DNA of 64,000 nt from Blautia sp. (GTDB taxonomy: Bacteria; Bacillota; Clostridia; Lachnospirales; Lachnospiraceae): NCBI GenBank assembly GCA_017475035.1, contig JAFVGK010000077.1, positions 1 to 64,000 on the forward strand. The letters run 5' to 3'. This document shows, piece after piece, positions 6,839 to 62,470 of the stretch (within the stretch, counting starts at the first letter, position 1; each line of letters begins with the position of its first letter). The notes below the pieces were generated by a model that worked only from the letters and a program-made list of their open reading frames with translations, did not search any database and was not told the DNA's origin. Both the position numbers and the translations under genes were made by a program.

Positions 6839-6912
6839 TTTTTTCTTCCGGCTCGTACGGCTGGCTGTCTGAATAAACCTTTTCCGCAATCTACAGGTAC
6901 GGACCGTTCTTT

Positions 6913-7002
6913 CCTCCTAAAATGAAGTTTTGTACGTTGATGCAACGTCTTCTGATAACGATTTTGCTTCTTTGGCAGTTGGACTGCCGAAGTCAAAATC
7001 AG
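6913..7002 (-). repeat. Dispersed hairpin element R2, copy a
   Basis: On the minus strand the order is ACTGATTTT, then hairpin CGGCAGTCCAACTGCC, then TTATC, then GAAG-ACGTTG-CAT-CAACGT-ACAAAA-CTTC (a nested stem), then ATTTTAGGAGG. Other copies are at 15796-15833 (3' part), 26086-26177, 50099-50158, 61531-61590 and 61812-61902. The terminal GGAGG lies about 75 bases before the downstream start codon, so here it probably does not act as that gene's ribosome site. Confidence 0.75.
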
Positions 7003-7029
7003 TATCCTCTGAAATATACGATTTGATTT

Positions 7030-15608: not shown

Positions 15609-15697
15609 AGATCTTTGCATAAGTAACCTTTACATCTCGCGCGTCTAAATCCGCCCAGTCTGCGTTGTTGTCAGTCGCAGTTGTAGGTTTGTCTGGA

Positions 15698-15787
15698 TTA
15701 TATTTTGTCCCGGAGCGCGAAATGCGACAGACCGAAAAGAGAATATTTTGCCACGGCTGCGTTTTTTGCAGGCGTGGCAAAATAGTC
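15698..15787 (+). repeat. Stem-loop element R5, copy 1
   Basis: ATATTTTGTCC, GAGCGCGAA and CAAAATAGTC occur in the same order as on the reverse strand of 26043-26088, where they fold into one long symmetrical stem-loop. Here the middle is expanded and includes a near-perfect inverted repeat at 15744-15784 (TATTTTGCCACG with CGTGGCAAAATA, inner CTGC with GCAG). No U-run follows. Confidence 0.5.
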
Positions 15788-15795
15788 TCCGTGGC

Positions 15796-15833
15796 CATTG
15801 AGTCAGCGTACATAACTTCGTTTTGGGAGGAGG
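15796..15833 (+). promoter_or_regulatory. R2 element, 3' part, forming a ribosome site
   Basis: CATTGAGTCAGCGTACATAA then CTTCGTTTTGGGAGGAGG matches the end of R2 copies a and e. The GGAGGAGG is the ribosome site of the YedK-like gene that starts at 15845, so here the element is part of the mRNA leader. Confidence 0.65.
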
Positions 15834-15844
15834 AAACGGGAAAT

Positions 15845-16456
15845 ATGTGCTGCCGTTATTATCTGGATGAATCCCCTGAGCTGAAGCCATACGTGGATGA
15901 AGCAAAGGGTTCTTCTCTTTCCGTAAAAATGTCTCAGGAGGGAAAGCTTCTGAAAACAGAAGGGGAAATCCGTCCGACAGATACCGTTCCGGTTCTCGCT
16001 AAAAACAGACAGGGAAAAAGCGCCGTATTTCCTATGATCTGGGGCTTTACCACAAGGAGCGCGCCCTTGTTTAACGCCCGTTCGGAAACCGCTCATTTAA
16101 AGCCCTCCTTCCGGGAAGCTTTTGAGCGTCGGCGCTGTGTGATTCCCTGTTCCCGGTATTTCGAATGGGAACATATCCTCTTATCAAACGGAAAAAACAA
16201 AACAGGAGATCGATACTCCATCCGGCCTGCCGGAGAGACACTGACCTGGCTGGCCGGTCTTTACCATTTCGAAACGGACGGTTTTCCCCATTTCGTCGTG
16301 CTGACGCGGGAACCGGGAGAAAACATCCGTTTCATCCACAACCGGATGCCGGTCATTCTTCCCGAAAAAGAAATCAGAAAATGGATCTATGATCTTCCCG
16401 AAAAAAACTGGCTTGAAGATACAGCTCTTACCGAAATGGACTTTCAGATGGGATAG
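15845..16456 (+). CDS. SOS response-associated peptidase (YedK/HMCES)
   Basis: Predicted 203-residue DNA-repair protein that crosslinks to abasic sites in single-stranded DNA through Cys2. The ATG at 15845 gives MCCRYY, so cysteine is residue 2 as the mechanism requires; this decides the start against an open upstream extension. Other family residues are visible: NARSE, PCSRYFEWEH with the catalytic glutamate, and HNRMPVIL with the active-site histidine. GGGAGGAGG, part of element R2, precedes the start. It stands alone between repeats. Confidence 0.9.
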   Translation: MCCRYYLDESPELKPYVDEAKGSSLSVKMSQEGKLLKTEGEIRPTDTVPVLAKNRQGKSAVFPMIWGFTTRSAPLFNARSETAHLKPSFREAFERRRCVIPCSRYFEWEHILLSNGKNKTGDRYSIRPAGETLTWLAGLYHFETDGFPHFVVLTREPGENIRFIHNRMPVILPEKEIRKWIYDLPEKNWLEDTALTEMDFQMG

Positions 16457-25444: not shown

Positions 25445-25987
25445 TCAGCCGTTTCCGTTCCTTCCATCCAGATCCTTTGCCAGCCCTTCCAGATAAGGGA
25501 CGAGGACGCCGCCCTGTCTCGGGAGATAAAATCCCTCGTCCAGTTCTTCACGCCGGAAGCTTTTCCGGCCTCCTGTCTCCATCCGCTCCCAAAAACGGGA
25601 AAGCTCCTGAAAGCGCAGATAATACAACAAATCTTCATGGCTGAAAAGCACCAGTATAAATGCTACTCCGCCCTGACGCTCAAAATCTCTCATAAACCTT
25701 ACCTGATGAGGATGAATATTCGCCAGCGGAAAGGTATCCCCACCGCACTCCTTCGCGTCAAAGCAGACCGGAATTCCCTGCACGGCCCCGATATAGTCAA
25801 CCGTGCTTTGCTGCTCAAAATAGGCCAGTGTAATATGCCTGGATTCTTTATCGATCCGAAGCGGGGTAATGGGCGTCGGGATTTTCTGAATAAGGGCAAG
25901 CCCTTTTTCCCTGTATTGCTCATTCGTGCGATTGACCAATTCCTCCAGTGTCGACCCCCTCAGGCCCCGGCTGTTCCATGTCGCCAA
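25445..25987 (-). CDS. recU: Holliday junction resolvase RecU
   Basis: Predicted 180-residue nuclease that cuts Holliday junctions in Firmicutes. Motifs are TWNSRGLRG at the start, TNEQYREKGLALIQKIPTP, VDYIG with the metal aspartate, CFDAKE with the catalytic Asp/Glu/Lys set, and NIHPHQ. The start is a TTG at 25987 preceded by AGGAGGAGACAGAGC. It gives the family N-terminus MATWNSRG; upstream residues in the same frame look non-native. Elements R5 and R2 lie between lepB and this gene. Confidence 0.9.
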   Translation of the reverse strand: MATWNSRGLRGSTLEELVNRTNEQYREKGLALIQKIPTPITPLRIDKESRHITLAYFEQQSTVDYIGAVQGIPVCFDAKECGGDTFPLANIHPHQVRFMRDFERQGGVAFILVLFSHEDLLYYLRFQELSRFWERMETGGRKSFRREELDEGFYLPRQGGVLVPYLEGLAKDLDGRNGNG

Positions 25988-26042
25988 GCTCTGTCTCCTC
26001 CTCTTACAATGCAAATTGTAAACCGGCATACCGTCCGGATGA

Positions 26043-26088
26043 CTATTTTGTTGCCTATCGCGCTTCACGCTCTAGGACAAAATATGTC
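26043..26088 (-). repeat. Stem-loop element R5, copy 2
   Basis: On the minus strand ATTTTGT-CCTA-GA-GCG folds back on CGC-GA-TAGG-CA-ACAAAAT around a TGAAG loop. That is a long symmetrical stem-loop with matched internal loops. The same blocks appear at 15698-15787. It lies in the probable leader of recU. Confidence 0.55.
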
Positions 26089-26177
26089 TCCCATAGCGAA
26101 GTTTTGTACGTTGGCTCAATGTCTTCGGATAACGGTCCTGCAGCTTCGGCAGCTGGGCTGTCGTAGATAAAAATCCG
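26086..26177 (-). repeat. Dispersed hairpin element R2, copy c
   Basis: The minus strand carries a GACAGCCCAGCTGCC hairpin, TTATCCGAAGACATTGAGCC, then AACGTACAAAACTTCG and a degenerate GGGAGAC. The stems are kept with different bases from copy a (CAGC with GCTG; TTG-AGC-CAA), which hints at structural conservation. It lies between lepB and recU. Confidence 0.65.
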
Positions 26178-26220
26178 TCTCCTTCACGATTCCTCTCAGG
26201 ATCGGGTCATAAATCATTTC

Positions 26221-49104: not shown

Positions 49105-50091
49105 TCACAAGCCCAGATGGGCATATGCTTTTGGGGACACGACACGCCCCCGTGGGGTCCGGCTGATAAATCCGTTCTGGAGCAGATAAGGTTCATACAC
49201 ATCTTCCAGGGTGCCGGCGTCTTCTCCGATGGATGCGGCAAGGGCTTCGATTCCTACCGGACCGCCCTGGAAATGCTCGATCATTGTACGTAAAATCTTT
49301 CTGTCGGTCTTGTCCAGACCATAAGCGTCTACTTCGAGAAGATCCAAAGCAAAGGACGCCACATCATACGTGATGTTTCCTTCATATTTGACCTGCGCAA
49401 AATCTCTGACACGGCGAAGCAGCCGATTTGCCAGACGAGGGGTTCCTCTGGAACGTCTGGCGATCTCCCTGGCCCCGTCCGCATCAATCTTTACGCCGAG
49501 AACATCCGCAGAGCGGACTACAATTGTCGTCAGCTCTTTCTGGTTATAAAACTCCAGATGATGTACCACGCCAAACCGGTCTCTGAGCGGGGCGGATAAC
49601 AGGCCGGCCCGGGTAGTAGCCCCAACCAGCGTAAATTTCGGCAGATCCAGACGGATCGAACGGGCTGAAGCTCCTTTTCCGATCATGATGTCAATCGCGT
49701 AATCCTCCATGGCGGGATACAATACTTCCTCTACCTGGCGGTTCAGACGGTGAATTTCATCCACAAACAGTATATCCTTTTCCTGAAGATTATTCAGGAT
49801 AGCGGCCATTTCTCCCGGCTTCTCGATGGCGGGACCGGACGTCACCTTTAAATGTGTCCCCATCTCATTCGCTATGATGCCGGAAAGCGTCGTCTTGCCA
49901 AGACCCGGAGGGCCATAAAACAGTACGTGATCCAAAGCATCGCCTCTTAACTTTGCCGCCTCGATATATACCTTAAGAGTATCTTTTATCTTATCCTGTC
50001 CGATATACTCGTCCAATGTCTGAGGACGCAGACTTCCCTCCGCGGCAAAGTCCTCCTCTGTCACTTCTGTCGTAATGATCCTCTTCTCCAT
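49105..50091 (-). CDS. ruvB: Holliday junction branch migration ATPase RuvB
   Basis: Predicted 328-residue AAA+ motor that drives branch migration with RuvA. Motifs are [26 protein letters not shown] (Walker A), [10 protein letters not shown] (Walker B), [18 protein letters not shown] and the winged-helix end [11 protein letters not shown]. The ATG at 50091 lies after GGAGGAGGGC, which is the 3' end of element R2. The spare frame upstream reads into R2 and is not conserved. Confidence 0.95.
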
Positions 50092-50098
50092 CAAAGCC

Positions 50099-50158
50099 CT
50101 CCTCCCAAAGCACAGTTTGTTGCACAGCTTCTTAAACTGCCGAAGACAAAATCTGTCT
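50099..50158 (-). promoter_or_regulatory. R2 element, copy f, carrying the ruvB ribosome site
   Basis: The minus strand reads ACAGATTTTGTCTTCGGCAG, then GAAGCTGTGCAACAAACTG, then CTTTGGGAGGAGG. It is shorter and more diverged than copies a and e, but keeps the order and the terminal ribosome site. It fills the ruvA-ruvB gap. Confidence 0.5.
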
Positions 50159-50168
50159 CCCTGTATGT

Positions 50169-61470: not shown

Positions 61471-61530
61471 TCTGCAATGCCAAAAAAACACGCTTGTTCA
61501 GACATACCTGCGAAGCTTTGGACCCAATTA

Positions 61531-61590
61531 TAACGAAGTTTTGTCCCTCGACTCAATGTTTTCAGTCTCCAATCTTTCAGAATCAATTTT
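61531..61590 (-). repeat. R2 element, copy d (partial)
   Basis: The minus strand reads CATTGAGTCGAGGGACAAAA then CTTCGTTATAATTGGG, which matches the 3' half of R2 without the GGAGG. It lies upstream of the rpiB promoter, so it is not in that leader. Confidence 0.5.
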
Positions 61591-61811
61591 TATGCACAGA
61601 TCCCTATTTCAGACCAAAGGAAAGACTATCACAGGCAATGATAAATGTCAATGACATTGAATACGGCAAGACGTAGTATGGTTTGTTGAACTACATCCTG
61701 CATTCTTCATACTATTTTTAGGCACTCGAAGGTTTTTGTCTATTTTTTTTTTCGTTCCGGTGCGATATACTTTTTTTCATCTGAGGCAAGGGAGAAACAC
61801 CAGAAAAAGGA

Positions 61812-61902
61812 GACTGATTTTTCTTCGGCAGTTCCGGCTGCCAAAGATCATTATCACCCGAAGACATTGCGTCAACGTACTGAATTTCATTCTGGGAGGA
61901 GG
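61812..61902 (+). promoter_or_regulatory. R2 element, copy e, carrying a ribosome site
   Basis: ACTGATTTTTCTTCGGCAGT, a GCTGCC partner arm, TTATCACCCGAAGACATTGC, GTCAACGTACTGAATTTCAT and GGGAGGAGG follow the order of copy a. The GGAGGAGG is placed correctly for the GTG start at 61910, so this copy is probably the leader of the DUF308-like gene. Confidence 0.65.
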
Positions 61903-61909
61903 TGTAAAT

Positions 61910-62470
61910 GTGGATTCACAGCTAAGCGTCAAACTTGCCAGAAACGGTTACATCATTGTATCCTTGCTCTTTTGCCTTACCGGGATATGGGAATGTACGG
62001 GGCTTTTGACAGATATTCGTTTGCTGTGTACTTTAGTAGGCCTTCTGTGCATAACATGTGGACTGATAAAGATGATCGGATATTTCTCCAACGATCTTTA
62101 TTGCCTTGCTTTCCAGTATGACTTTGCCTTTGGCCTTTTGATGTCCAGCGTAGGATGCATTCTGCTGATACGTTTTCAGCTTTTGCATCCCTTTATCTAT
62201 AATATTCTGGGGCTTATCATTCTTACCGATTCCGTCTTTAAAATCCAGATGTGCATGGACGCAAAGCGCTTCGGTATGCACCGTTTGTGGTGGAGACTGA
62301 TGATGGTTGCCATTGCAACGGGAGTTTTAGGTGCTCTTATTCTGATCAGGCCTTTCCAGGTTTCTTTTTTACTGGATCGCTGGTTTGGATATGCTTTGAT
62401 TTCGGAGGGAATTTTAAATCTCCTCGTAGCCATTTTTACGGTAAGGGTAACCAAAATTCATCCTTTGTAA
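61910..62470 (+). CDS. DUF308/HdeD-like membrane protein
   Basis: Predicted 186-residue membrane protein with six helices, arranged as three similar pairs (for example LLCTLVGLLCITCGLIKMIG and YNILGLIILTDSVFKIQM), as in the HdeD/DUF308 family. Function unknown; HdeD relates to acid resistance in enterics, which need not hold here. The GTG at 61910 follows GGAGGAGG. The ATG one base earlier opens only a five-codon frame and was rejected. Confidence 0.7.
   Translation: MDSQLSVKLARNGYIIVSLLFCLTGIWECTGLLTDIRLLCTLVGLLCITCGLIKMIGYFSNDLYCLAFQYDFAFGLLMSSVGCILLIRFQLLHPFIYNILGLIILTDSVFKIQMCMDAKRFGMHRLWWRLMMVAIATGVLGALILIRPFQVSFLLDRWFGYALISEGILNLLVAIFTVRVTKIHPL

Follow-up and report, generated by a model that had tools for sequence, protein, structure and literature searches.

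Directly before a DUF308-like gene (Pfam E 3e-07; GTG start at 61910 assumed), a 5.08 Mb Blautia-like Lachnospiraceae genome carries a hairpin-rich sequence that ends in a ribosome site and has relatives nearby. For this element, designated R2, the initial annotation offered two options: a leader that acts in cis by concealing or uncovering the ribosome site, or a mobile element recruited into that role. The stretch analyzed, referred to as the window, comprises 64,000 nt of this genome, which is assembled in 200 contigs.

Anatomy and copies of R2 in the window and the genome

The R2 unit has the order GGAGAC, long hairpin H1, GTCATCC, spacer, short hairpin H3, and GAGGAG, or more fully GGAGAC - NN - ATTTTG - variable tip - CAAAAT - GTCATCC - G - spacer - H3 - GAGGAG. 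Its 5′ module occurs in three forms (A, B, and C), to all of which the foot of H1 is common, and copies combine differing 5′ modules and 3′ hairpins. Folds of one consensus and of two consensus-like typed copies showed that GGAGAC pairs with GTCATCC at the H1 foot. Six places in the window had been proposed to share related sequence, and they do: the covariance model R1 scored 66–92 bits at four of them, weakly at one, and non-significantly at one. R1 was built from 43 copies, and three of the six places [6911-7009 (-), 26085-26183 (-), and 61803-61901 (+)] lie inside its alignment, so that these were matched by construction. The features of the window are as follows:

61809..61902, plus strand: A-type copy with GGAGAC at 61809 and GGGAGGAGG at 61894-61902
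61522..61577, minus strand: decayed 3′ half of a copy, without ribosome site (R1 21.2 bits, E 0.0014)
50099..50160, minus strand: internally shortened copy between ruvA and ruvB (copy from sequence; RuvA and RuvB by Pfam)
26088..26182, minus strand: A-type copy, first of a tandem pair upstream of recU (R1 80.9 bits at 26085-26184; copy in model)
25995..26091, minus strand: C-type copy, second of the recU tandem pair (5′-half HMM match without an A-type 3′ half)
15736..15833, plus strand: B-type copy ending in GGGAGGAGG (R1 66.3 bits at 15736-15832; outside the model alignment)
15697..15733, plus strand: fragment like a C-type 5′ module, just 5′ of the B-type copy (by eye, no model score)
6911..7009, minus strand: A-type copy, 20 nt past an ABC ATPase gene (R1 91.7 bits; copy in model)

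The boundaries given by the initial annotation had to be corrected: the element extends from GGAG to GGAGGAG, i.e., about 93 nt plus the left GGAG, and the copy placed at 15796 begins at about 15736. The copy at 61809..61902, itself part of the model, scored 74.2 bits at 61807-61901 (+); its H1 is decayed, with a folding z-score of -0.41 and an unpaired GGAGAC/GTCATCC foot. The 3′ half at 61522..61577 (-) was also detected by the 3′-half HMM (21.7 bits). Taken alone, the shortened ruvA/ruvB copy is not significant (R1 10.8 bits, E 0.67 at 50099-50162 (-)); it keeps both ends, GGAGACAGATTTTGTCTTCGGCAG...GGGAGGAGG, and the latter is followed by the ruvB ATG at 50091. The two units upstream of recU (Pfam RecU E 1.5e-65; probable TTG start near 25987) have one GGAG in common, and H3 of the C-type unit reads TTACAAT-TTGC-ATTGTAA, directly before GAGGAGGAG. 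Behind the B-type copy lies an SRAP-family gene (Pfam SRAP E 9.1e-35) with an ATG at 15845. The element indeed provides the ribosome site at 15845, at 50091, and, with the GTG start assumed, at 61910, and the recU start near 25987 probably uses it as well. For the copy at 6913, a role as ribosome site is doubtful: the likely start of the downstream gene (Pfam Peptidase_C26) lies about 70 nt further down, and the copy is probably not at the next gene's ribosome site.

Three window copies precede genes of DNA repair or recombination, namely recU (25985-26182), ruvB (50089-50160), and the SRAP gene (15736-15847). This neighborhood may be a coincidence, since the genes downstream of copies elsewhere are mixed. 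For REP elements, many DNA repair genes are described among the genes with in-frame copies (PMC3733652).

R1 detected at least 150 full-length copies in the genome, all at E ≤ 2.5e-12 (150 scored out of 2,117 candidates). A blastn search of the same genome with the 61812 copy yielded at least 44 matches (40 of 86 candidates scored), and a 39-nt pattern for which at most 3 mismatches were allowed hit 51 sites, compared to 0 for the reversed pattern. A sample of ~0.45 Mb, consisting of the whole of C90, most of C143 and C94, and the window, contained 63 R1 matches at E ≤ 0.01. The 58 matches of at least 28 bits represent the working set of own copies; the five left out have 26.5, 25.5, 22.2, 21.8, and 21.2 bits, and two of them are antisense echoes of copies. 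Extrapolation would give ~600 copies genome-wide, starting from sampled contigs that are long and were already known to carry copies. R1 misses subfamilies with a different 3′ half. When the two halves were sought apart in the ~0.45 Mb, 43 of 80 5′-half and 43 of 60 3′-half matches paired up, and the unpaired halves listed seem to stem from decay, from other subfamilies, or from the palindrome being matched in antisense. No longer, autonomous version with halves flanking a gene was seen by eye in this sample.

The units are ~84–102 nt long, mostly 90–97 nt. Counted to the first right-hand GGAG, the length peaks at 90 nt both in the own genome (9 of 22) and in the carrier RGIG2469 (14 of 30), and the own-genome peak moves up by 3 nt when the whole GGGAGGAG is counted. 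In SRR873601_bin.66, the peak is at 94 nt (12 of 29), a length that would shift a reading frame. The right end of the 58 own copies, decayed halves included, has GGAG in 50 cases and none in 8, and their left end has GGAG in 32, GAG in 11, and neither in 15. The cross-genome search patterns require a left GGAG (or GAAG), so that they provide no test of the left end. In tandem copies, neighboring units share the GGAG. A classical MITE has terminal inverted repeats and a target-site duplication; the ends of R2 are direct and not inverted repeats of GGAG. With such direct ends, a target duplication and an end motif would look alike unless a close empty site is at hand.

Structure of the R2 copies

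RNAalifold gave no consensus structure for the mixed alignment A1 of the 43 copies, and the structure was instead assembled manually from individual folds. Within A1, H1 is 86% paired. Paired cells, cells changed on both sides, and the covariation score of A1 were all above those of shuffled alignments (0 of 500 shuffles each), with 32 cells changed on both sides over the whole structure vs. 15.7 in the shuffles. The number of pairs with both-sided change (12 vs. 10.3; 137 of 500 shuffles) and that of further pair types (45 vs. 42.3; 92 of 500 shuffles) were not raised in A1. H3 alone showed no excess in this alignment, its paired percentage being reached by 108 and its covariation score by 155 of 500 shuffles. 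Across all carriers, 87 of 90 natural copies fold more stably than the mean of their own shuffles, and the mean energy of the 90 copies is -40.5 kcal/mol compared to -31.2 kcal/mol after shuffling.

For H3, a wider cross-genome set of 133 copies identified by an H1 pattern was used, of which 124 have a recognizable GGAGG-like site. Ninety-three of these 133 copies come from loci retrieved with that pattern alone. The remaining 40 come from loci retrieved in other ways, among them whole-element searches, and some of these searches employed a model containing H3. In this set, the stretch before the ribosome site reaches a hairpin score of at least 5 in 47.6% of the copies vs. 6.5% after shuffling. 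The arms of H3 differ by lineage and yet pair (CAAAAC/GTTTTG, GTGAAC/GTTCAC, TTATAC/GTATAA, TATAAC/GTTATA, TTACAAT/ATTGTAA, and CGAAAC/GTTTCG). In 122 copies (the 124 minus two dropped for length or motif), H3 pairing was 4.61 of 6 compared to 3.65 (maximum 3.94) when the 5′ arms were swapped across genomes in 1,000 swaps. Swaps within genomes gave 4.39 (maximum 4.58; 1,000 swaps), which leaves a narrow margin. The 84 copies from the pattern-alone loci showed 4.56 vs. 3.75 (maximum 4.05) after swaps. Because natural H3 arms pair better than swapped ones, the structure of the element is under selection, with the support for H3 coming from the wider cross-genome set.

The structural selection proposed in the initial annotation was thus confirmed with respect to compensatory change in the kept pairs, above all those of H3, but not with respect to the GAAG/CTTC stem. 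One of the four pairs of this stem fails in 20 of the 43 copies (one of them gapped), whereas its inner TTG/CAA pairs are near-invariant in these copies and therefore uninformative, and other carriers, RGIG2469 among them, have retained neither. The second hairpin that finds support is H3, directly before the ribosome site.

Position at ribosome sites, empty sites, and in-frame copies

To relate the copies to genes, a copy was counted as positioned if a start codon 7–23 nt after the start of its Shine-Dalgarno sequence opens an ORF of ≥60 aa. By this measure, 59 of 86 copies in the pattern-alone loci provide a ribosome site for a start codon (54 ATG), compared to 777 of 3,007 GGAGG control sites in the same loci (479 ATG). 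The corresponding numbers are 34 of 38 (25 ATG) for copies from other fetches and 93 of 124 (79 ATG) for all cross-genome copies with a site, and in 86 of these 93 the start codon is 11–18 nt from the start of the Shine-Dalgarno sequence. Among the own copies, 39 of 58 are followed within 15 nt by a start codon that opens an ORF of this length (33 ATG). At least one of these 39, L104:6963, is a coding copy and thus a false positive; for GGAGG outside of elements, the control value is 291 of 1,095 (179 ATG). The predicted bias toward positions before genes is therefore strong, both for own and for cross-genome copies. Some copies are located neither at a start codon nor inside a gene. The downstream genes are diverse and include, with names from sequence alone, Hsp33, a sugar ABC permease, and aldolase-like, FtsW-like, and RtcB-like genes, as well as, by Pfam, those for SRAP, RuvB, and RecU.

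Sites with and without the element were compared at two loci. In the own genome, a single B-type copy, beginning at the stop codon, makes up the 120-nt gap between an MTase gene and hslO (Hsp33), and the stop overlaps AAGGAG. Hsp33 is present in 61 sister genomes, and in all 29 loci fetched from them MTase and Hsp33 are both found, while the copy is present in none of the gaps. R1 had a single match in 52 Hsp33/HelD loci, namely the own locus. The second case is a HelD-like helicase (Pfam UvrD-helicase). Of 22 same-genus orthologues, one ends before the site of the copy, and the 21 that span it all lack exactly the 31 residues contributed by the copy. The protein alignment suggests an insertion after ATGGAG of 93 nt that ends in GGGAGGAG. 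At both sites, the sister proteins are ~54–76% identical, so the relatives are distant. The element thus appears to behave as a mobile entity and not as a fixed leader, and the comparison with repeat-free sites in relatives speaks for an inserted repeat.

Further copies lie in frame inside unrelated proteins. A CbiA/GATase_3 protein contains three tandem units in frame (two of them reported by R1), and one in-frame copy each is found in a DUF2264 protein, in an ABC permease (BPD_transp_1), and in FtsK of RGIG2469. An HGD-D/BcrAD_BadFG protein (L043:743-2707, 655 aa) has two copies, at residues 145 and 266, whose reading frames differ from each other; they lie between or at the edge of the HGD-D and BcrAD_BadFG domains. 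Orthologue alignment was applied to the HelD-like case, the other host proteins being identified by their Pfam domains, and the Pfam-supported coding cases come from the own genome and RGIG2469. One copy is antisense in a 421-aa ORF whose sole Pfam match (DUF5105) is below the cut-off. Two copy-bearing ORFs of RGIG2469, L272 and L276, have no Pfam match; these, the antisense ORF, L255, and the glycosidase ORF L040, which may include an untranslated stretch, are excluded from the coding count. Inside open frames of RGIG2469, tandem copies with a 90-nt period were seen at L276:4406-4590 and L255:4093-4240.

These observations bear on the proposal of a true cis-regulatory leader that, in the manner of a riboswitch or by binding a protein, would cover or free the ribosome sites of a regulon and would have been spread by gene duplication or recombination. 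Compensatory pairs and the position directly before start codons would fit such a leader, and the structure is conserved. However, a defined gene set is absent, copies occur inside proteins, one of them antisense, and the extrapolated number of ~600 copies also speaks against a leader. Rfam had no match at the gathering score in the window and none at E ≤ 0.1 in seven copy-bearing loci, and H1 decays in single copies such as that at 61812. Since the corresponding sites in relatives lack the repeat, unrelated proteins carry in-frame copies, and the downstream genes share no theme, we consider a dedicated regulatory leader highly improbable. The other option of the initial annotation, a co-opted mobile element, comes close; as a whole, the initial interpretation was partly supported.

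Most probably, R2 is a mobile element, short and non-autonomous, for which GGAG is both the sequence behind which it inserts and its own right end. Such a so far unrecognized element, which would resemble REP and RPE in its behavior, is the best explanation of the data. The structured unit (H1, spacer, and H3) would insert immediately 3′ of a GGAG and bring GGAG or GAGGAG with its own right end. The Shine-Dalgarno sequence has GGAG at its core, which would explain why many surviving copies are found at ribosome sites. There, the old Shine-Dalgarno sequence would become the base of H1 and be masked, whereas the right end would restore an equivalent one at the normal spacing to the start codon, and because the site is restored at the right distance, the insertion should do little harm. 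In coding regions, an insertion would be tolerated if its length is a multiple of three and its frame is free of stops, for which the 93 nt in the HelD-like gene and the 90-nt tandem period in RGIG2469 would be examples. Folding of 90 copies with the ATG in place predicted the left GGAG to be unpaired at 0.13 compared to 0.42 with a shuffled core, and the right Shine-Dalgarno sequence at 0.55 compared to 0.47. The predicted masking of the left site is clear, and the right site is predicted to become only slightly more open. The insertion is presumed to be neutral for translation. Hiding and exposing of the ribosome site is thus predicted in a fixed sense only, with the left GGAG masked and the right one open.

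It might also be that insertion is untargeted and that selection alone leaves copies at ribosome sites. Copies in coding and other places and the 15 of 58 own copies without a left GGAG or GAG would agree with this, and part of the ribosome-site bias could reflect selection, since an insert ending in GGAG is least harmful there. However, the left flank is purine-rich and resembles a Shine-Dalgarno sequence (A at -1 in 80% of 90 copies), a feature that no search pattern required; the left GGAG is present in 32 of 58 own copies, and the spacing of 11–18 nt holds for 86 of 93 positioned copies. Untargeted insertion is therefore judged unlikely, and GGAG is the putative insertion target of the mobile element. 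The mobilizing enzyme may seek ribosome sites, or it may use any GGAG with selection clearing the rest. As a tentative extension, in which we have less than even confidence, the signal for starting translation could be what the element targets: an enzyme, which might use single-stranded DNA or mRNA as its substrate, would join the unit to the GGAG of the Shine-Dalgarno sequence, and the hairpins would be selected both for mobility and for masking the old site while leaving a working one. The element would then enter genes with little damage at the non-coding position where they are most vulnerable.

Carriers, candidate mobilizers, and known repeat families

The presence of R2 in the genus is patchy. 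R1 matched 7 of 64 genomes at E ≤ 0.001 (the own genome and 6 of 63 others) and left 57 without a match in a scan with stricter filters, by which weak relatives may be missed. The six other carriers (G068 with 30 matches, G070 with 28, G032 with 9, G079 and G071 with 7 each, and G018 with 1) hold diverged versions of the element. In GTDB contigs, a family-wide pattern hit at least 93 stretches, and among the 80 matches listed all labels are Clostridia, Clostridiales, Lachnospiraceae, or Blautia; a narrow pattern had 0 hits in these contigs, among which the own genome may be masked. By eye, copies are mostly more alike inside one carrier than between carriers, as separate bursts would give. A 60-nt H1 is letter-identical in G070 and SRR873601_bin.66 (L216 and CAMOSC loci such as L221), which may point to horizontal transfer or to a recent source common to both. 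Viral contigs had 0 matches to the exact family pattern, and plasmids and phages had no blastn match to one B-type consensus.

None of the candidate mobilizers searched for is common to the carriers: Y1_Tnp was found in 8 of 13 (with 5 of 13 lacking a match), Y2_Tnp in 2 of 13, and RVT_1 in 7 of 13. Since the carriers are fragmented, incomplete assemblies, this is weak evidence. Y1_Tnp occurs in 40 of the 64 genomes of the genus. In G032, a long RAYT-like Y1 gene is bordered by palindromes of another family, of GAACCAGGGGGGTTCCCTGGTTC and GGGACGGTCC types (L321 ~250-280 and 1080-1130), and a similar palindrome is present in G068 (L189:4516-4613). Short tandem repeats of the ACTGAAACGTAATCTTTT kind lie 5′ of a 217-aa Y1 gene in G079 (L322:1300-1400), and CCCTTTCAGGGC-like repeats follow the IS200-like gene end of the own genome (L047).

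One may ask whether R2 represents ordinary REP elements moved by a RAYT (REP-associated tyrosine transposase). REPs are described as palindromic, single or grouped, with a tetranucleotide tag at one end and, in several bacteria, some of them within coding sequence (PMC3733652), and R2 is likewise palindromic, of high copy number, tandem, and in places in frame, with GGAG as an end tetranucleotide. In addition, a long Y1 protein is encoded ~250 nt from one copy in the copy-dense genome of RGIG2469. However, the sole Y1_Tnp match of the own genome is a partial IS200-like gene end at a contig edge (L047:1-330) with an unrelated end; the long Y1 gene of G032 stands beside the different palindrome, that of G079 has no credible adjacent copy, and five of 13 carriers have no Y1 match. 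No RAYT gene flanked by R2 copies was found in the own genome, G032, G079, and RGIG2469. Furthermore, REPs measure 20–40 bp and lie mostly near gene 3′ ends according to PMC3733652, whereas R2 is ~93 nt long, biased to 5′ ends, and has a conserved end GGAG instead of a GTAG/CGTC tag on a 20–40 bp palindrome. R2 thus departs from REPs in two features by which these are defined, namely the end tag and a neighboring RAYT, and we regard its being an ordinary REP as quite unlikely.

IS200/IS605-type ends consist of hairpins beside a short cleavage motif, with insertion 3′ of the motif and a like motif at the right end, and their tandem joins share the end motif. By analogy, R2 might work like such a Y1-type end pair; in contrast to these elements, no Y1 transposase was found to be common to its incompletely assembled carriers, and no relative with a gene between the halves was found in the ~0.45 Mb. 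RPE and similar elements of Rickettsia, Wolbachia, and Methanocaldococcus are short palindromic multicopy repeats that are reported in frame in unrelated proteins (PMC10969869, PMC2996958, and PMC3733652). R2 shares with them the in-frame presence in unrelated protein genes without disrupting these, as in the HelD-like protein with its 31 additional residues, but differs by its two distinct hairpins, its GGAG ends, its frequent role as ribosome site, and its Lachnospiraceae host. The resemblance would be one of behavior, drawn from descriptions of RPE and not from their sequence, and no RPE membership is claimed. PARCEL are mobile palindromic amphipathic coding repeats present, among others, in Firmicutes subgroups (PMC2996958); compared by description, they differ as coding repeats for which the part of the source available mentions no ribosome-site role. 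BOX, RUP, and SPRITE of pneumococcus are short interspersed repeats that spread in bursts in a Firmicute, and BOX is described to form new ORFs without good Shine-Dalgarno sequences (PMC3049150), whereas R2 ends in one.

The titles and abstract beginnings listed in searches of one open library included neither a repeat that supplies the Shine-Dalgarno sequence of many genes nor the R2 family in Blautia or Lachnospiraceae. Insertions at a ribosome site normally harm the expression of the downstream gene. If the proposed mechanism is true, a repeat that replaces the Shine-Dalgarno sequence would explain how hundreds of copies accumulate right before genes, and it would offer a natural means of placing extra sequence in front of genes or at their 5′ ends. 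In metagenome-assembled genomes, R2 copies may pass as false N-terminal extensions or short ORFs. One and the same R2 unit would serve as a leader or as a protein segment, depending on where it lands, and gut Lachnospiraceae would thereby join Rickettsia, Wolbachia, and other lineages with in-frame palindromic elements.
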